A stretch of 64,000 bases of DNA from an uncultured Candidatus Actinomarina sp. (lineage in GTDB: Bacteria; Actinomycetota; Acidimicrobiia; Actinomarinales; Actinomarinaceae): contig CACAND010000002.1 of the NCBI GenBank assembly GCA_902533795.1, positions 1-64,000 of the forward strand, in the 5' to 3' direction. Position 1 is the first letter of the stretch; the number at the start of each line of letters is the position of its first letter. The position numbers and the translations under genes were made by a program. Below are positions 30,491-45,021 of the stretch, one piece after another. The notes beneath the pieces are model-generated. The model saw nothing but the letters and a program-made list of their open reading frames with translations, was not told the DNA's origin and searched no databases.

Positions 30491-30501
30491 TTCAATAAAT
30501 A

Positions 30502-30617
<116 letters not shown>

Positions 30618-30638
30618 TACTCAACTTCTTAAAAATTC

Positions 30639-30650
30639 TATAGCAAGCGC
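30639..30650 (-). repeat. 3' arm of the pre-23S RNase III processing stem
   Basis: TATAGCAAGCGC here is the exact reverse complement of 33744-33755 on the other side of the 23S gene. A second, inner pair (GTATTC/GAATAC) continues the stem next to the mature ends. Confidence 0.75.
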
Positions 30651-30666
30651 GCTTACGCCGTATTCA

Positions 30667-33723
<3,057 letters not shown>

Positions 33724-33743
33724 TATATGAATACTTTGCAATT

Positions 33744-33755
33744 GCGCTTGCTATA
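33744..33755 (-). repeat. 5' arm of the pre-23S RNase III processing stem
   Basis: GCGCTTGCTATA, the exact 12-base partner of 30639-30650. It lies in the 16S-23S spacer, 20 bases before the mature 23S 5' end. Confidence 0.75.
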
Positions 33756-33775
33756 CAATTTTCAAAAAGCCAAAT
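33756..33775 (-). promoter_or_regulatory. boxA-like antitermination motif in the 16S-23S spacer
   Basis: Minus-strand TTTGGCTTTTTGAAAATTG resembles the bacterial rRNA boxA (GTTCTTTGAAAACT type). A nearly identical copy lies in the 16S leader at 35550-35568. The 148-base spacer holds no tRNA gene. Confidence 0.5.
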
Positions 33776-33788
33776 GACTTTTTCACAG

Positions 33789-33801
33789 CTGAGTAATGTA
33801 T
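33789..33801 (-). repeat. 3' arm of the pre-16S RNase III processing stem
   Basis: CTGAGTAATGTAT is the exact 13-base reverse complement of 35540-35552 in the 16S leader; the two flank the whole 16S gene. Confidence 0.75.
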
Positions 33802-33871
33802 CAGTCTTGTAGACAACCGATGTTTAACCTTAGAACAATAAATTCTAGGAACTTAAAGTTCTATGCTCCTT

Positions 33872-35402
<1,531 letters not shown>

Positions 35403-36789: not shown

Positions 36790-37364
36790 TATATGACCAG
36801 TGTAAATCTCCATAAGTGTTTATCACGTGGTTTGGAATTTTTTCTTTGCTTTGCTATTGCTCTCTCGACAGGATGTATACGTGGTGATAAAGATACTGTC
36901 CCATCTAAAAGATTTTCACCATCTTGCTTAACATCTATACCAAGAGCCTTTGTTATATTTCCAGGTCCATATAAATTATCATTTTTCATTTTTTGTTTTC
37001 TTCTTGTCTCGGCATAATTTTTACCAAGAATAATCTTTCCAGATCTAATCAATACACCCTGACAAGAACCAGGTTTAGATGTCAAAAAAAAGAGACTGTT
37101 ATTTGACCCGTATGTTTTTAAAACCATTATGTGGGGTGGCCCTAGAGGTAAAGATACTGGTATTTTTCTATTTAATTGATTTGCTAGAGACATCTTATCT
37201 CCATTGGCTGTACCAAATGCTTCTGTTTCTGTAATCATTATTTCAGTAAATTTATTTTTATATTTTGTTGATATTCTCATACCTAAGATATCAACTGCAG
37301 CTTTTTGGGAGTTTTGTGAGAGTATTTGAAAAACCCTGTTGTTTAGACCAAGATTATCAATCAT
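36789..37364 (-). CDS. mpg: 3-methyladenine DNA glycosylase (AAG/Mpg family)
   Basis: Base-excision repair enzyme removing alkylated purines. 191 residues from ATG 37364 (GTG 37373 would add three). The family core is visible: ITETEAFG (catalytic Glu region), the substrate-pocket segment KPGSCQGVLIRS, and the signature YGPGNITKALGI. It overlaps the pheT end by 8 bases and is followed by tyrS. Mycobacteria also have mpg directly before tyrS, which supports the call. Confidence 0.92.
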   Translation of the reverse strand: MIDNLGLNNRVFQILSQNSQKAAVDILGMRISTKYKNKFTEIMITETEAFGTANGDKMSLANQLNRKIPVSLPLGPPHIMVLKTYGSNNSLFFLTSKPGSCQGVLIRSGKIILGKNYAETRRKQKMKNDNLYGPGNITKALGIDVKQDGENLLDGTVSLSPRIHPVERAIAKQRKNSKPRDKHLWRFTLVI

Positions 37365-39723
37365 TATTACCACTGTTGAGAGTGATTTTGAATTTTGCCT
37401 CTAATGAGTCAGAGATTTTCATCAATATTTGCCTTGTTTCGTTATCGTCATAAGTTTTTTCATAGCTTCTAGTAACTATTCTAATTCCTAAATTTCTTGA
37501 ATTCTCATGTTGGAAATCATCAAATATTTCTATTTCATTTTCATTTTTACTTAGTAATTTATTGATTTCGTCGACGATTAAATGAGCAGAAAATTCAACT
37601 GGAACTGAGAATGATAAATCGAATTTAATATAGGGATATTGAGAAAGAGGTTTGTAGTTGATTTGTTTTAATTCATTTAAATTGAGTTTATTTACATATA
37701 TTTCTCCTAGAAAAACTTCATTCTCTATCTCAAAATTATTTTGTAACTCAGTAGACAATTGACCAAAATGCCCAATAATTTCATTTTTTTTAAATATAGA
37801 AAAAGAATAATTTTGATGAAATCCTGGTTTTATTATTGGCTCTAATTGTGTATCGTTTATTAATTGATTTATCAAACTTTTTACGTAATATATATCAATA
37901 TTTTGATCACTTTTTCTGATATCTTGAGTTGTTAGATTAGCTGATGTTATAAACCCAAGTACAACGTTTTGATTCGGAACATCATTAAATGTGTTATCCA
38001 CAGAAGAATTAAAAACTGTATTTATTTCGAAATAGCTGTTTAATATGTTGTTTTGCTGAAGATTAAATATATAAGTATCTAAAAGATTTGACATTAAATT
38101 AGATCGTAAGTAATTGTTAGATTTATCAATTGCATTAAAGACCGTTACATATTTTTTTTCTGGATTAAATACAGTATTCATTTCTTTATTAACAAAACTT
38201 AGAGTTTGTATTTCTTGAAAGTTATTTGAAATAAGTATTTTGGAAAGATATTCTTTTACTTTCCAAAAATTACCCTTTTCATTTTTATATAGTCCTTGTG
38301 GAAGATTTGAAGAAAAATTATTAAATCCATAATGTTTTGCAAATTCTTCAATTAGATCCACTGGTCTGTCTAAATCATATCTCCATGATGGTGCGGTAAA
38401 CTCAATGTTATCGTTTTTTATTTCCACATCGATCATTAAATTTTTAAGAGTTTTTTTAATAAATGAATCTTTAAGTTCAATCCCAAGTAATTTTTTAATT
38501 TCATTTTTTTTAAGATTAATTTTTTCATTTTTAATGTTATTTTTAGTATCAATACTTAATTCGGAATATTTTATGTCTTGACTATCTTTTAATATCATGA
38601 GAAATTGTTCTAATCCGTATTTTTGAATGTTAAAATCTATTCCTCTTTCAAACCTAATTGAGGCATCTGAAATAAGTCCTAATTTTCTTGAAGTTTTCAT
38701 TATTGAAACCTTATCAAAGTAAGCACTTTCAATTAGTAAATTAACTGTACTGTCAGTAACTTCAGTTTCAAGTCCCCCCATTACTCCAGCTAGAGCAATC
38801 GGTTTATCTCCATCAGTTATAACTAGATCATCATTTGTAAGTTTTCTTTTTTGTGAATCAAGAGTTGTAACTATTTCATTGTTTTTAGCTTTTCTAACAG
38901 ATACCGTATTAAAAAGTTTATCCCTATCAAATGCATGTAGAGGTTGTCCTACGTCGTACAAAATGTAATTTGTAATATCTACAACATTATTAATTATTCT
39001 TGTTCCGACATTTGATAATCGGTATCTAATTAAAAATGATGAATCTGTTACTTTAAAATTTTCTATTTCAACTGAACCATATGAATTACATTCCTTAATT
39101 TTTCCACTGTTAGTGTTTAAAATGTTTGTTATCGATGGATTAAGTTTCGATTTTTTAATGTTTATTTTTTTATCAAAGTAATTGGACAGTTCTCTTGCAA
39201 TTCCCAAATATGACATACAATCACCTCTGTTTGGTGTTATGCCTATATCCCACAAATAATCTGAACTTGCATATATAGATGAGAAATCAGTACCTGGCAG
39301 AATGTTATCGTCTAATATCAGTATGCCTTCATGATCATCCCATAAATTAAGCTCAGAGGCTGAACAAATCATACCGTTAGATTCAACTCCTCGAATATCT
39401 CTTTTATCAATTTTAAAACCATCTTTAATTTCGGAATTAGGAAGGGCTACTGGTACTACAGCACCAACATCAAAGTTCCATGCCCCACATACGATCTCAT
39501 AAGTTTTACTACCAACATCAGTTTTTGTTACTCTCACTTTGTCTGCATTAGGATGAGGGTATATTTCAAGAACTTTTCCTACGACTATATTTGAATAATT
39601 CGGTTTTAAATCAGATTGTTCTTCAATTTCAAATCCTAAACTTTCTAGTCCTTCAGAAATGTCTTCATTTGATATTTCAGATATATCTATCCAATCATTT
39701 AGCCAAGATTTCAAAACTTTCAT
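37357..39723 (-). CDS. pheT: Phenylalanyl-tRNA synthetase beta subunit
   Basis: 788 residues, normal length. Domains in order: an N-terminal tRNA-binding/EMAP-like OB fold (VVGKVLEIYPHPNADKVRVT, about 46-65), the B3/4 editing domain, the B5 domain (IKKLLGIELKDSFIKKTLKNL), the catalytic-like core, and the C-terminal ferredoxin-fold anticodon-binding domain (YPYIKFDLSFSVP...SLEAKFKITLNSG). It follows pheS with a TAATG-like junction; the subunits form an alpha2beta2 enzyme. Confidence 0.96.
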   Translation of the reverse strand: MKVLKSWLNDWIDISEISNEDISEGLESLGFEIEEQSDLKPNYSNIVVGKVLEIYPHPNADKVRVTKTDVGSKTYEIVCGAWNFDVGAVVPVALPNSEIKDGFKIDKRDIRGVESNGMICSASELNLWDDHEGILILDDNILPGTDFSSIYASSDYLWDIGITPNRGDCMSYLGIARELSNYFDKKINIKKSKLNPSITNILNTNSGKIKECNSYGSVEIENFKVTDSSFLIRYRLSNVGTRIINNVVDITNYILYDVGQPLHAFDRDKLFNTVSVRKAKNNEIVTTLDSQKRKLTNDDLVITDGDKPIALAGVMGGLETEVTDSTVNLLIESAYFDKVSIMKTSRKLGLISDASIRFERGIDFNIQKYGLEQFLMILKDSQDIKYSELSIDTKNNIKNEKINLKKNEIKKLLGIELKDSFIKKTLKNLMIDVEIKNDNIEFTAPSWRYDLDRPVDLIEEFAKHYGFNNFSSNLPQGLYKNEKGNFWKVKEYLSKILISNNFQEIQTLSFVNKEMNTVFNPEKKYVTVFNAIDKSNNYLRSNLMSNLLDTYIFNLQQNNILNSYFEINTVFNSSVDNTFNDVPNQNVVLGFITSANLTTQDIRKSDQNIDIYYVKSLINQLINDTQLEPIIKPGFHQNYSFSIFKKNEIIGHFGQLSTELQNNFEIENEVFLGEIYVNKLNLNELKQINYKPLSQYPYIKFDLSFSVPVEFSAHLIVDEINKLLSKNENEIEIFDDFQHENSRNLGIRIVTRSYEKTYDDNETRQILMKISDSLEAKFKITLNSGNND

Positions 39724-40715
39724 TAGAACTGCCTTAGAAATCTCAGATCATTTTCATAGAAATTTTTGATGTGGTCAATTTTATAACGAATCATAGCTAA
39801 TCGCTCTACACCAACACCAAACGCAAAACCTTGAGAATTTTTATCGTATCCTACATGTTGAAACACATTAGGATCGACCATACCACAACCCAATATCTCA
39901 AGCCATTCACCATCTTTCCAACTTACTAAAACCTCAGCTGATGGTTCAGTAAATGGAAAAAAATGTGGAATAAATTTAGTTTTAATTCCTTTACCAAAAA
40001 ATTCTTGAACAAAATATTCTAATGTCCCTTTTAAATCTGAAAATGTTAGATTTTCATCTACGGCCAAACCTTCGATTTGATGGAAAACTGGTGAGTGAGT
40101 TGCATCTAATTGATCGGATCTATAAACACGACCAGGAGCAACTATATAAACCGGTGGTTTATTATTTTGCATGTGCCTTACTTGTACCGTACTTGTTTGA
40201 GTTCTGAGAAGTTGCTCTAAATTTTTATCTAAATAAAGTGTGTCTGATTCATAGCGAGCCGGGTGCCAATCAGGTGTATTTAAAGCATCAAAATTATGCC
40301 AAGAAGTTTCTGCTTCTGGGCCTGTTGCTACGGTATAACCAATTGCAGAGAATATATCCACAACTTCATTCATAACGCTTGTTAATACGTGTTCTCTGCT
40401 TCCTAAATCTTTGTACCAATTGATTGTTATATCTTTATTGTCGTTTAATTCCTTCTCTTTAAAAAATTTAGATTGAAAACTTAATCTTTCTTGATTTAAT
40501 CTTTCAGAAATTTGGGTTGATAGCTCTTGAAGGACTTTTCCATATTTCTTTCTAGAGATTTCACTCATAGATGATAATTTCTTTCGTTCTTCTGAAATTA
40601 ACGAATTTTTACCTAAGTATTCTTTTTCTAAGTCATTGAATTCATCAATCGAAGTAACTTGTTCAACACTTAATAAAAAAGATGCAAATATCTTTTCTGT
40701 ATTAACCTCAGGCAT
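39723..40715 (-). CDS. pheS: Phenylalanyl-tRNA synthetase alpha subunit
   Basis: Class II catalytic subunit, 330 residues. An N-terminal coiled-coil arm (about 1-85) precedes motif 2-like VYRSDQLDATHSPVFHQIEGLAVD and motif 3 GFAFGVGVERLAMIRY. The phenylalanine pocket segment FTEPSAEVLVSW is present. The start overlaps the end of rplT by 8 bases, so ribosomal protein and synthetase expression are coupled. Confidence 0.96.
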   Translation of the reverse strand: MPEVNTEKIFASFLLSVEQVTSIDEFNDLEKEYLGKNSLISEERKKLSSMSEISRKKYGKVLQELSTQISERLNQERLSFQSKFFKEKELNDNKDITINWYKDLGSREHVLTSVMNEVVDIFSAIGYTVATGPEAETSWHNFDALNTPDWHPARYESDTLYLDKNLEQLLRTQTSTVQVRHMQNNKPPVYIVAPGRVYRSDQLDATHSPVFHQIEGLAVDENLTFSDLKGTLEYFVQEFFGKGIKTKFIPHFFPFTEPSAEVLVSWKDGEWLEILGCGMVDPNVFQHVGYDKNSQGFAFGVGVERLAMIRYKIDHIKNFYENDLRFLRQF

Positions 40716-41067
40716 TTATATTTTTTTTGGCTAAATCAACAAGCTTTTTAAAACCATCAGGATCATTTATTGCTAAATCTGCGAGTATTTTACGATCAAC
40801 TTTTACTTCTGCGTTAGTTAGTCCGTTAATAAATTTAGAATATGGAAGTCCATGCTCTCTTGAAGCAGCATTTATTCTTGAGATCCATATTTTTCTGTAT
40901 GTTGCTTTCTTGTCTTTTCTATGTGCGAAAGCATCATTACCAGCATGCATAACTTGCTCTTTTGCAGTTCTTAACCTTTTACTGCGAGCACCTGTATAAC
41001 CTTTAGCTTGCTTAAGAACTTTTTTTCTTGATTTTCTGCTACTAACAGATCTTCTAACTCTTACCAT
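40708..41067 (-). CDS. rplT: 50S ribosomal protein L20
   Basis: 119 residues. Basic N-terminal extension RVRRSVSSRKSRKKVLKQAKGYTGARSK and conserved RKIWISRINAASREHGLPYSKFINGL. It binds 23S rRNA early in assembly. In some Firmicutes L20 represses its own infC-rpmI-rplT operon; whether that applies here is open, but a leader hairpin precedes infC. It follows rpmI with no gap. Confidence 0.97.
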   Translation of the reverse strand: MVRVRRSVSSRKSRKKVLKQAKGYTGARSKRLRTAKEQVMHAGNDAFAHRKDKKATYRKIWISRINAASREHGLPYSKFINGLTNAEVKVDRKILADLAINDPDGFKKLVDLAKKNINA

Positions 41068-41256
41068 TTAACTCAACAACTTTCTGATTTTCTTTGAATC
41101 ACCCTTTGAGGATTCTACATCACGTTTTAGCCTAGACCAGGAGTTACTTCCTTTAGCTAGTTTATAGTGTGATCTGTGGGCACGTCTTCTCATAAACTTT
41201 CCAGTTCCACTGACTCTAATTCTTTTTTTCATACCTTTATGTGTTTTGTGTTTCAT
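41068..41256 (-). CDS. rpmI: 50S ribosomal protein L35
   Basis: 62 residues, typical length. N-terminal KHKTHKGMKKRIRVSGTGKFMRRRAHRSH matches the L35 signature (K-T-x-x-x-x-K-R-x-x-x-T-G-x-G-K). It lies between infC (4-base overlap) and rplT. Confidence 0.96.
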   Translation of the reverse strand: MKHKTHKGMKKRIRVSGTGKFMRRRAHRSHYKLAKGSNSWSRLKRDVESSKGDSKKIRKLLS

Positions 41257-41768
41257 TTTCTACCTCCATTTGGTGCTAAAACCATTGTAAGTGAGCGACC
41301 GTCTGGTTTTGACGTAGATTCAACCATCGATAGATCCTCAAGCTCATCTCTCAAATTATCAAGAATTTTTTGCCCTAATTCAGGATACTCCGCTTCTCTA
41401 CCTCTAAATCTCATTGTGAACTTCACTTTATCTCCATCTTCTAAAAACTTTTTTGACTGATTCAACTTAATTCTGTAGTCATTGGTATCAATTTTGGGTT
41501 TTAGCTGTATTTCCTTTACGTTAATTTTTACTTGTTTCTTCCTTGATTCCCTTGCTTTTTGCTTAAGTTCAAATTTATATTTTCCATAATCCATAAGCCT
41601 TGCAACAGGAGGTTTACTTTCCGGAGAGACCTCTACTAAGTCAAGATCAAGCTCTTCAGCGAGAATCAAAGCTTTCTTCAATTCTAATTCTCCAACTTGT
41701 ACTCCATCAGGTGCAATGACGAGTAACTTTTTAGATCTGATCTCTTCGTTTACATTTAATTCTGCTAT
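41253..41768 (-). CDS. infC: Translation initiation factor IF-3, probable AUA start
   Basis: 171 residues from ATA 41768. IF-3 begins just before NVNEEIRSKKLLVI, and the conserved region EVSPESKPPVARLMDYGKYKFE plus a C-terminal MRFRGREAEYPELGQKIL domain are present. The ATA has AAAGGA ending six bases upstream. The alternatives are GTG 41798, which lies inside a terminator-like hairpin, and TTG 41783, which has no ribosome-binding site. Non-AUG AUU/AUC/AUA starts are a known, autoregulatory feature of infC. IF-3 keeps 30S subunits free and proofreads initiation codons. Confidence 0.93.
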   Translation of the reverse strand: MAELNVNEEIRSKKLLVIAPDGVQVGELELKKALILAEELDLDLVEVSPESKPPVARLMDYGKYKFELKQKARESRKKQVKINVKEIQLKPKIDTNDYRIKLNQSKKFLEDGDKVKFTMRFRGREAEYPELGQKILDNLRDELEDLSMVESTSKPDGRSLTMVLAPNGGRK

Positions 41769-41784
41769 TTGTTTTCCTTTCAAT

Positions 41785-41809
41785 AAAAAAAACAGCACGA
41801 AGCTGTTTT
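41785..41809 (-). terminator. Terminator-like hairpin in the infC leader
   Basis: Minus strand: AAAACAGC, loop TTCGT, GCTGTTTT, then further T to give a run of eight T in all. It has the full form of an intrinsic terminator, but lies about 17 bases before the infC start and downstream of a good promoter, so an attenuation role is likely. Confidence 0.7.
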
Positions 41810-41859
41810 ACAAACCTAACTATTTTTCACAGTAGGTGGAACATTGTTCGCTTGATTTC

Positions 41860-41887
41860 ATTATATAACTAAATTTTTATTATGTAA
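41860..41887 (-). promoter_or_regulatory. Promoter of infC-rpmI-rplT
   Basis: Minus-strand TTACAT (41882-41887), a 16-base spacer and a perfect TATAAT (41860-41865). The start would be at about 41853, giving a leader of about 85 bases that holds a GAACAATGTTC palindrome, a possible ACCTA/TAGGT stem and the terminator-like hairpin. The -35 box lies in the end of ribH. Confidence 0.6.
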
Positions 41888-42278
41888 GAAAAAGATTATT
41901 TATGGCGTATGCAGATTCGGATCCTTTGTTTTTATTATCCGAAGATCTATTTTTTGCTTGTTCAAGAGTTTGAACGTTAAGTACACAATTTGATATATAG
42001 ACATCTCTAGTAATAGTCATTGATAAAAGTGCATTAGCAATACTTGAAGATAAATAATCATAATGATCTGTTTCACCTTTCACAATAACTCCTATTGCAA
42101 CAAATTTATCATATTCGCCAATCAGAGAGTTTATTTTATGGATTAACTCCCAACTACCTTCTACCTTAAACGTATCACACTGAAAGCTATCATCAATAGA
42201 CTTCTTGAAACCATTGACCAGAGACGAACTTATATCCTGATAATAATCAGAATAAACTATTGCAACTTTATTCTTCAT
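41880..42278 (-). CDS. ribH: 6,7-dimethyl-8-ribityllumazine synthase
   Basis: Penultimate step of riboflavin synthesis. 132 residues from ATG 42278, which overlaps the ribAB end by 11 bases; the upstream in-frame GTG or ATG would add an unrelated basic stretch. Conserved: AIGVIVKGETDHYDY (catalytic His, phosphate loop GETxH) and NCVLNVQTLEQAKNRS, corresponding to NGVLT...QAxxR. It is short for RibH (about 150). Confidence 0.9.
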   Translation of the reverse strand: MKNKVAIVYSDYYQDISSSLVNGFKKSIDDSFQCDTFKVEGSWELIHKINSLIGEYDKFVAIGVIVKGETDHYDYLSSSIANALLSMTITRDVYISNCVLNVQTLEQAKNRSSDNKNKGSESAYAINNLFLT

Positions 42279-43470
42279 TAAAATTATGACCCATTTTATT
42301 TTCTTTAGTGTCAAGGTATGATGAATTTTCATTCGTTATTTTGCCCTTCAATGGTGTTCTCTTTACAATATTTAAACCAAATCCTTCAAGGCCTGCTCTT
42401 TTGCTAGGATTGTTCGTTAATAGATTCATATTCGTAATTCCTAAGTCTCTGAGGATAAGTGCACCTGTTCCGTAGTCTCTTTGGTCCATTTCAAAACCTA
42501 ATTTCAAATTAGCTTCAACTGTATCAGCACCTTCATCTTGAAGTGAGTAAGCCTTTATTTTGTTACCAAGACCTATACCTCTTCCTTCGTGACCTCTCAT
42601 ATACAAAATAACTCCAGAACCATTTTTAACTATTGTTTCCATTGCATTATTTAATTGATATCCACAGTCACATTTATTCGAGCTAAAAACATCACCTGTA
42701 AGACACTCAGAGTGAACTCTTACCATAGATGAATCACCCTGTAGATAATCTTTATAGGTAAGAGCAATATGCTCTGTATTGTCATTATTATCTTTATATA
42801 CATGTGCGGTAAATTCGCCAAAATCTGTAGGCACTTTTGCGCTAGACACCAAACTTACTGGGTTGGACAATTTCAAGCGATACTCTATTAAATCTTTTAT
42901 AGTTCCAATAGCAACGTTGTGCTTTGCTGAAAATTCAATAAGGTCATCAATTCTTGCCATAGATCCATCATCGTTAATAATTTCACAAATTACAGCTACA
43001 GGATAATGATCTGCAACTAAACATAAATCAACTGCAGCTTCTGTGTGTCCAGCACGTCTTAAAACTCCGCCGTCCATAGCTTGCAAGGGAAAAACGTGCC
43101 CCGGAACTTTAAAATCTTCTCTAGTTGCACTTGGATCACTCAATCCTTTAATAGTTTTAAATCTATCATCAGCTGAAATACCTGTTGAAACACCATCACC
43201 CATAAGATCCACAGATGTTGTAAATTGTGTATCTTCTTCATTATCAATACCCTGCATTAATGATAATTTTAATTTTTTAGCAACATCTTTAGCAATAGGC
43301 GCGCATACAAGTCCTTTTGCATAAGTAATCATGAAATTTATATGTTCAGGTGTTAGATAGTGAGAAGACACAATTAAGTCACCTTCGTTTTCTCTATCCT
43401 CATCATCAACGAGGATTACCATTTCACCTTTTTTAAATTTTTCGATAATAATTTCTATGTCACTTATCAT
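42268..43470 (-). CDS. ribBA: Bifunctional DHBP synthase / GTP cyclohydrolase II
   Basis: 400 residues. The N-terminal RibB domain has VDDEDRENEGDLI (metal-binding and catalytic acids) and later PGHVFPLQA...GHTEAAVDL. The C-terminal RibA domain has the zinc ligands CLTGDVFSSNKCDCG, then MRGHEGRGIGL and LLTNNPSKR. The fusion supplies both precursors of riboflavin (dihydroxybutanone phosphate and the pyrimidine). It lies between ribE and ribH with overlapping ends. Confidence 0.96.
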   Translation of the reverse strand: MISDIEIIIEKFKKGEMVILVDDEDRENEGDLIVSSHYLTPEHINFMITYAKGLVCAPIAKDVAKKLKLSLMQGIDNEEDTQFTTSVDLMGDGVSTGISADDRFKTIKGLSDPSATREDFKVPGHVFPLQAMDGGVLRRAGHTEAAVDLCLVADHYPVAVICEIINDDGSMARIDDLIEFSAKHNVAIGTIKDLIEYRLKLSNPVSLVSSAKVPTDFGEFTAHVYKDNNDNTEHIALTYKDYLQGDSSMVRVHSECLTGDVFSSNKCDCGYQLNNAMETIVKNGSGVILYMRGHEGRGIGLGNKIKAYSLQDEGADTVEANLKLGFEMDQRDYGTGALILRDLGITNMNLLTNNPSKRAGLEGFGLNIVKRTPLKGKITNENSSYLDTKENKMGHNFNEE

Positions 43471-44038
43471 TAATCATTTTCTCCATATATTTAGCAAGTA
43501 TGTCATATTCAATGTTAACTAATGAGCCATTTTTTAGGTATTGTAAATTTGTTCTTTGATAAGTTTCACTTATAACTGCAACACTAAATGATTCTTCGGT
43601 CGGATCAACAACTGTTAAAGATATACCGTTTATTGTAATTGAACCCTTATCAACAATATATTTAGAATCGATAATTTTGAAATAGTAAGTCCATAGATTA
43701 TTTTCATTTTCTTCAATGTTTATTACTTCTGAAGTTGTGTCAACATGTCCTTGAACAATATGACCACTTAAGAATGTTGACATGGTTGCAGGTAATTCTA
43801 GATTAATTTTTGAACCAGTTTTATATCCTTTAGCAATTGTTCTATCAAATGTTTCATCTGATACTTGAAAATTCAATAAATCATCTTCGTAGTCACGTAA
43901 AGTTAGACACGTTCCATCAATCCCAATACTTGTTCCAGAATCAAGATTTTGGTATGAGTTATTATCAGTACTGATTTGAATAACATCATCATTTAAAGTC
44001 TCAATATTCCCAATTGAATTAATAATTCCAGTAAACAT
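43460..44038 (-). CDS. ribE: Riboflavin synthase alpha chain
   Basis: 192 residues from ATG 44038 (TGATG junction with ribD). N-terminal MFTGIINSIG is diagnostic. There are two lumazine-binding repeats, each with a GTSIGIDGTCLT- or KGSITINGISLTV-like segment, and FLSGHIVQGHVD between them. It converts two lumazines to riboflavin plus a pyrimidine. No FMN riboswitch was recognised upstream of the rib genes. Confidence 0.95.
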   Translation of the reverse strand: MFTGIINSIGNIETLNDDVIQISTDNNSYQNLDSGTSIGIDGTCLTLRDYEDDLLNFQVSDETFDRTIAKGYKTGSKINLELPATMSTFLSGHIVQGHVDTTSEVINIEENENNLWTYYFKIIDSKYIVDKGSITINGISLTVVDPTEESFSVAVISETYQRTNLQYLKNGSLVNIEYDILAKYMEKMINDK

Positions 44039-45021
44039 CACTTAATAGTATAAGTAGATAATGAATTATCTTTAACCTGATATTGGTCAATGAGAATATA
44101 ATCTTTTTTCAAACTATTTTGAATTCTTGTATCTAATTTCAAACCATTTACTAAATTAGAATCAGATTTAAACATATAAAACTTATCTATTTGTTGTTGT
44201 TCAAAAAAGTATGAAAGAACCTTATTACCGCCTTCAATAAGCCCTGTCTTTAAGTTATTTCTTAATACAAAGTCATTAAATGGACCTTCTTCATTTTCAA
44301 CGTAGAATAAAAAATTACTATTATTTTTCTTATAGGTCATTAAATCTTTTGTATTATTTCCCCAAATAACGATTGGTGTCGGACTTGAAAATTTATCATC
44401 AAGGCGTACATTAAGTTGAGGAGCATCTTTTATTAATGTATTCTTTCCAATAATTATACAATCTACGGTTGACCTAATATAGTGGGATATTTCACGAGAT
44501 TGTTGATTACTAATGTATCTGTTGTTTTCTTTATAAATAATGTTGTCATTTGAGATTGCTACTTTACCAATAAAAAAAGGTTTTGCATCAGAGTATTTAT
44601 ATCCAGGATTTAGAAATTCATTAACACCTTCTTCAACTATTACTTCTATATCATTTTGTCTTAAAAGATCTATACCTTTTCCGTCTGTTCTTTTATCTTT
44701 ATCAATATCTCCTACAACTACCGATTTGATACCAGTTTGTATAACAGTTGATGCGCAGGAAGGTGACGTATCATCATGAAAGCAAGGTTCTAGAGTTACG
44801 TATAACGTATCATCAGCTGATACTTCTGAATTCTTAAATAGACTGTATTCTGCATGGTCGTATCCCTTATTTTGATGTGCCGCAACTTTTTTAATTTTAT
44901 TATTTTTATCAACAAGTACAGCTCCCACTCTCGGGTTTGGTGTTGGATTGTAACGCAATGCAACTTTTATAGCTTCAATCATATATTCAGAGAAGTGTAA
45001 AAATTTAAGACTATTTTGCAA
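44038..45021 (-). CDS. ribD: Bifunctional pyrimidine deaminase/reductase RibD
   Basis: 327 residues. The N-terminal deaminase has zinc ligands in DHAEYSL and EPCFHDDTSPSC; the substrate loop is NPTPNPRVGAVLVD. The C-terminal reductase has GKVAISND, STVDCIIIGKNTLIKDAPQLNVR and LIEGGNKVLSYFF. It catalyses the second and third steps of riboflavin synthesis. TTG 45021 is the only start that includes the first helix; ATG 44982 would remove 13 residues. Confidence 0.94.
   Translation of the reverse strand: MQNSLKFLHFSEYMIEAIKVALRYNPTPNPRVGAVLVDKNNKIKKVAAHQNKGYDHAEYSLFKNSEVSADDTLYVTLEPCFHDDTSPSCASTVIQTGIKSVVVGDIDKDKRTDGKGIDLLRQNDIEVIVEEGVNEFLNPGYKYSDAKPFFIGKVAISNDNIIYKENNRYISNQQSREISHYIRSTVDCIIIGKNTLIKDAPQLNVRLDDKFSSPTPIVIWGNNTKDLMTYKKNNSNFLFYVENEEGPFNDFVLRNNLKTGLIEGGNKVLSYFFEQQQIDKFYMFKSDSNLVNGLKLDTRIQNSLKKDYILIDQYQVKDNSLSTYTIK

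Follow-up and report, generated by a model that had tools for sequence, protein, structure and literature searches.

The leader upstream of infC in an uncultured Candidatus Actinomarina sp. is likely a minimal L20-type ribosomal-protein leader that acts by transcription attenuation. The reading is supported by what was observed, namely conservation, compensatory changes, a fixed geometry, in silico folds and a layout in common with the L20 leaders of Firmicutes and of many other Actinomycetota. From these we infer that L20 is the ligand, that its binding favours termination, and where the transcript begins and ends. The window analysed comprises bases 1–64000 of contig 2 of a 0.98-Mb Candidatus Actinomarina genome.

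Within the window, infC (IF-3; 41253..41768; TIGR00168, 203 bits), rpmI (L35; 41068..41256; TIGR00001, 44.9 bits against a cut-off of 51.2), rplT (L20, the presumed ligand gene; 40708..41067; TIGR01032, 146 bits), pheS (39723..40715; TIGR00468), which overlaps rplT, and pheT (37357..39723; TIGR00472), which abuts pheS, form a single run on the minus strand with genes overlapping or abutting, and pheS is probably on the transcript of rplT. The leader, as expected of an L20 leader, lies directly 5′ of an operon containing rplT. The genes ribD-ribE-ribBA-ribH (41880-45021, minus strand) come immediately before infC on this strand, and no FMN riboswitch was detected in the window by Rfam at the gathering score. 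Downstream of pheT lies a complete 16S-23S-5S rRNA operon (30500-35401, minus strand) with a 16S-23S spacer of about 150 nt; the Rfam scan found no tRNA anywhere in the 64-kb window.

The best-scoring promoter-like site of the region, TTACAT-16 nt-TATAAT, was found on the minus strand where the sequence-only reading had placed it, with the −35 hexamer at 41882..41887, weakly conserved across the genus, and the −10 hexamer at 41860..41865. TATAAT or TATACT stands 5–7 nt before an AAG (41851..41853, minus strand) in 30/30 genus leaders, and this AAG is invariant in all 30. Since TATAAT ends at 41860, the usual distance between −10 and +1 places the expected +1 at about 41853, the first A of AAG, and the terminated transcript would therefore be about 69 nt long, with its 3′ end expected near 41785. 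Behind the AAG follow two small hairpins on the minus strand. P1 (GAAC-AAT-GTTC, 41839..41849) is 100% paired in 27 distinct sequences and nearly invariant. P2 (ACC...GGU with a one-nt bulge and an inner stem, 41814..41837), 97% paired, carries two stacked G-C pairs, its ACCTA/TAGGT arms lying at 41837-41833 and 41818-41814. The intrinsic terminator (41789..41809, minus strand) is an 8-bp stem with a TTCGT loop, AAAACAGC-TTCGT-GCTGTTTT, and the run of eight T (41785..41792), invariant in 30 leaders, has four of its T inside the stem, the free tail being four T and then ATT. The Shine-Dalgarno sequence AAAGGA (41775..41780) precedes infC, whose ATA start codon (41766..41768) comes 16 nt after the T-run. 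The coordinates given earlier for a leader of about 85 nt with an intrinsic terminator before ATA 41768 were thus right. The fold of the single leader sequence is not unusual (z −1.25), and terminator-like sites are not in excess (2 found against 1.7 expected); the leader is judged to be more than chance because it is conserved in the genus, not from its single-sequence fold or the terminator counts.

Among the 42 family genomes searched, 34 contain infC, and the leader was present in 34/34 Candidatus Actinomarina genomes having the gene. A covariance model built from the genus leaders (R1), run with strict filters, matched genus leaders in 34 genomes and none in the other class genomes and families searched. 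AAGCGAA, GUUCCACC, CUGUG, AAUAGU, GGU, the terminator and T8 are kept across infC proteins down to 78% identity, with GGU replaced by GUGU or AGU in three genus leaders. The geometry is fixed: from AAG to the last T there are 68–70 nt, and from the end of the T-run to ATA 14–17 nt. In the terminator an A-U pair is replaced by G-C in 6/27 distinct sequences. In the ACC...GGU helix of P2 a U-A pair changes to C-G in 8/27 sequences and an A-U pair to G-U in 5, while the third pair (C-G) is lost in 3/27. P1 carries no covariation evidence of its own because it is almost invariant.

This conservation also bears on a simpler explanation, in which the hairpin does no more than terminate the riboflavin operon ahead of it (ribD-ribE-ribBA-ribH), with infC being transcribed by readthrough or from an unregulated promoter. 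The end of ribH at 41880 does adjoin the infC promoter just upstream of the hairpin, in 30/30 genus loci. However, that promoter stands at a fixed distance, with ribH on one side and the hairpin on the other, which means that transcripts of infC have to pass through the hairpin. Invariance of the leader also reaches well past the terminator itself. In the rest of the class, ribH was found upstream of infC in just 1/30 loci, yet the leader and a covarying terminator persist there. We therefore regard this explanation as very improbable.

The attenuator reading calls for two competing folds, and both were predicted in 30/30 genus leaders. The full-length leader folds as P1, P2 and terminator (OFF state). 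Without the terminator 3′ arm, an alternative fold beats P1 and P2 by 0.9-4.9 kcal/mol in 30/30 (ViennaRNA), so that this fold is favoured when transcription is just past the loop and the terminator is favoured in the full-length RNA. The alternative fold is the predicted antiterminator. Its 5′ strand, placed by ViennaRNA without the terminator 3′ arm and by pair counts, spans 41840..41851 (minus strand) and is composed of GCGAA (41851-41847) and UGUU (41843-41840), or alternatively AAGC (41853-41850); its predicted 3′ strand is the terminator 5′ arm plus loop (41797..41807, minus strand), with AACA at 41807-41804 and UUCGU at 41801-41797. In most sequences GCGAA would pair with UUCGU and UGUU with AACA, and in a few AAGC with GCUU; the registers GCGAA:UUCGU and AAGC:GCUU are indistinguishable from the sequence data. 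Three genus sequences (L014, L018, L027) break part of the antiterminator. Because both of its strands are nearly invariant, the antiterminator of the genus is plausible and unproven by covariation, which was seen in the class only. The two small leader pairings that the sequence-only reading had offered as alternative folds are P1 and P2 themselves, both compatible with the terminator; the predicted competitor instead draws on the 5′ end of the leader and on the terminator loop. The proposal of attenuation itself is well supported by conservation and the predicted antiterminator, and that reading as a whole is partly supported.

When the whole leader is folded by RNAalifold, UUCC pairs with the Shine-Dalgarno region, which would suit a translational mechanism where UUCC/CACC of the leader sequesters the Shine-Dalgarno sequence and L20 or IF3 acts on translation. 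This pairing has four pairs only and P1 must be open for it, and it leaves the conserved terminator with its T8 unexplained; we give such control very little credence.

The same elements were found in other members of the class Acidimicrobiia, supporting attenuation from outside the genus. Their infC leaders share AAG, a hairpin and CACC with a helix ACCCGG…CCGGGU or CCG-A-GGU and an inner arm, often with a strong hairpin nearer the gene, and an alignment of 30 class leaders contains pairs that vary and yet are kept. The 5′ end of the class leaders (GGGAAGUG and variants) is often complementary to their own terminator loop (CGCUUCCC and variants), and the two change jointly, as in GAGAAGC with GCUUCUC and CGGAAG with CUUCCG. 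The mean duplex energy between leader 5′ end and own loop was −7.28 kcal/mol against −5.97 kcal/mol for permuted partners (0/2000 permutations as good), and −11.1 against −9.1 for strong terminators with CUU/UUC loops (again 0/2000); part of this excess can be phylogeny, since the permutation keeps composition and not relatedness. Judging from these complementarities, much of the class would thus use the same leader region as a strand of the antiterminator. In family f8, the infC leader contains AAGUGAAC…GUUCCACC, which closely matches the Actinomarina P1 except that its loop is longer, and this family and the genus have AAGYGAAC...GTTCCACC in common at infC. One further class match to the f8-type pattern lies away from infC and a reversed-pattern control matches similarly rarely, so this argument rests on position.

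The known family nearest to the leader is RF00558, the Bacillus subtilis infC-rpmI-rplT attenuator. At the gathering score, Rfam gave no match to the leader in the window. RF00558 run on the Actinomarina leader scored 17.4 bits against a gathering score of 58.7, over the full model (1-127) and on the right strand, and the match was absent from two other searches over the same bases. Across 38 genus genomes RF00558 returns noise of about 11-30 bits elsewhere, the leader is not among the matches of its own genome, and genome-wide its score is within the noise of AT-rich genomes. Because the score is sub-threshold, fragile and at noise level, the leader is not filed in RF00558; its architecture suggests that it probably works like an L20 leader and is a diverged one. 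A covariance model of the class leaders (R2) found no match at the genus loci with default filters; with filters off its best position in a 401-nt stretch was the genus leader, but at 2.9 bits. R1 gave no convincing related leader in AT-rich class members. Weak Rfam matches to isrK, RyhB and similar families cover the terminator only and were set aside.

RF00558 nevertheless matched at E ≤ 1 in 78/296 Actinomycetota genomes, one above the cut-off (65.6 bits). The ten best of these matches were fetched and all lie directly upstream of infC, as do at least 15 further ones in a comparison by eye; two class leaders (23.6 and 19.6 bits) were found in this way, on the strand of the gene and in the leader region. 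We then described the shared layout as AAG, a hairpin, CACC and GGU with a paired flank, and compared it with dinucleotide shuffles. AAG followed by hairpin 1 and the CACC/GGU helix with its two stacked G-C pairs fits 29/30 genus leaders and 0.3% of shuffles. Before infC the descriptor fits 97% of real against 0.3% of shuffled sequences in the genus, 72% against 6% in the class, 70% against 3% at 30 infC loci of the phylum (the best-scoring infC loci, a non-random sample) and 100% against 3% in the RF00558-positive Actinomycetota. It fits 64% of the Firmicutes loci and 10/13 of Gemmatimonadota, and 0/8 loci in Proteobacteria. In leaders of the class, the phylum and Firmicutes alike, AAG stands ahead of the first hairpin. 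Four Firmicutes loci (L248, L219, L221, L222) were used for comparison, their antiterminators being read by eye.

In the class model search, two 8-9-Mb genomes of the phylum gave matches (AAGUGGAGGCUCCGAUCUCCCACCCGACC) that lie upstream of infC by a few hundred nt, and in an 8.9-Mb genome the match is 216 nt upstream of the gene; a leader of the Acidimicrobiia type may extend to large-genome Actinomycetes. Ten Gemmatimonadota infC leaders contain AAG-hairpin-CCACCC...GGU, several with a recurrent UCUGGCCCUC...GUGCUGCAGGAGUC arm, and by sequence these look like another unrecognised L20-type group. Taken together, we lean towards the view that L20-type attenuators before infC are ancient and widespread in Actinomycetota (and Gemmatimonadota) and have mostly been missed because the Rfam model is geared towards Firmicutes. 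The sensor core would have stayed, with a changing partner for the antiterminator (hairpin-1 loop, leader 5′ end or terminator loop), and Actinomarina would have one of the smallest forms, its sensor starting at mRNA nucleotide 1.

Given this layout, it appears unlikely that the attenuator, conserved and with these two folds, senses something other than L20, such as IF3, L35 or a small molecule. Such a ligand would agree with the position of the leader directly before infC and with the weak formal covariance-model homology of the genus leader to RF00558. Against it, the layout is that of the Firmicutes L20 leaders and of the RF00558-positive Actinomycetota leaders at the same gene, rplT is within the operon, and IF3 of E. 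coli acts via the start codon and not via a leader fold (PMC5472188, PMC10931766).

For the L20-type attenuator we propose the following mechanism. RNA polymerase would start at or beside AAG (about 41853), and before the second half of the terminator emerges the leader 5′ region would pair with the terminator 5′ arm and loop. This antiterminator would open P1, hold P2 inside and let the polymerase into infC-rpmI-rplT(-pheST). When in excess over 23S rRNA, free L20 would bind a sensor that consists of AAG, P1 and, within P2, the CC/GG pairs. Once bound, the 5′ region could not form the antiterminator, the terminator would fold and the RNA would end near 41785. L20 on the sensor is expected to lead to termination because AAG is in or next to the antiterminator strand. 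An AA dimer and two stacked G-C pairs recur in L20 leaders (PMC7247131). By analogy, these would most naturally correspond to the invariant AAG and to the CC/GG pairs of P2, and AAG, as candidate AA dimer, would also be part of the antiterminator strand. Resemblance to 23S H40/H41 comes down to AAG-rich contexts and, in some species, an 8-nt word, AACGATGT, which is insufficient for a claim of mimicry.

The start codon of infC is ATA in 30/30 genus members; in 30 other class members it is ATC (13), ATA (13) or ATT (1), ATA and ATC being the common infC starts in class and phylum, and in Streptomyces it is ATC (PMC5472188). The Actinomarina gene thus has a start of the AUU/AUA/AUC type behind a good Shine-Dalgarno sequence, and the AUA likely makes IF3 repress its own translation, a second and independent layer. 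Autoregulation through a rare start, as first suggested, fits the conserved ATA; since non-AUG starts are standard for infC, it is an ordinary feature. GTG 41798 and TTG 41783, which ORF callers prefer, fall within the terminator or its tail, whereas ATA has the right Shine-Dalgarno spacing. The annotation of infC in the genus is likely wrong because standard ORF callers disallow ATA and start at 41783-41798 (minus strand). An upstream ORF (GTG AAA AAT AGT ...) was also rejected, having no Shine-Dalgarno sequence and a length and frame end that vary between species.

In published work, L20 autoregulation is presented as belonging to Firmicutes, Thermotogales and enteric bacteria. A 2013 survey whose set included Corynebacteriaceae and Mycobacteriaceae reported the L20 motif solely from Firmicutes and Thermotogales (PMC3766115), and a study of M. 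tuberculosis noted an infC 5′ UTR resembling that of infA and likened it to the L20 system by analogy only (PMC3207917). The statement in the sequence-only reading that no equivalent is established in Actinomycetota accordingly agrees with the literature (PMC3766115), but L20-type leaders do stand before infC in many Actinomycetota. Their spread across the phylum is not reported in the published surveys consulted here; an earlier report is possible. If the sensor core is common across Actinomycetota, an old feedback loop would balance L20, L35 and IF3 in a phylum to which both Streptomyces and abundant ocean plankton belong. The Actinomarina leader is a small system (about 69 nt) in which sensor and antiterminator would share the first dozen nucleotides of the mRNA, testable in vitro with two components.

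Among known systems, the deltaproteobacterial L20 r-leader candidate (Eckert and Weinberg 2020, PMC7247131) is a further scaffold for which the AA dimer and two G-C pairs have been proposed; it differs in structure and in its gene, given as rpsT in the table of that paper, and is set apart here by description, not by sequence. The rpmI-rplT autoregulation of E. coli likewise involves L20 and the same gene cluster, with rRNA mimicry proposed for L20 sites (PMC10931766, PMC7247131), but its control is translational, its sites are near rpmI and infC is not included. The AUA start resembles the non-AUG starts through which IF3 regulates itself (AUU in E. coli, AUC in Streptomyces; PMC5472188), a layer separate from the leader. 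In B. subtilis, L20 promotes a terminator before infC of its own operon (PMC10931766, PMC6097659). Unlike that system (RF00558), the Actinomarina leader has about 69 nt from the expected +1 to the terminator end against 127 model positions, lacks the H3-like insert, is predicted to build its antiterminator from the terminator loop together with the 5′ end of the leader, has a score far under the threshold and belongs to another phylum. In common with it are the operon, a leader upstream of infC with a terminator before the infC Shine-Dalgarno sequence, the order of AAG, hairpin 1 and CACC...GGU hairpin, and a hairpin-1 region that would double as antiterminator partner.
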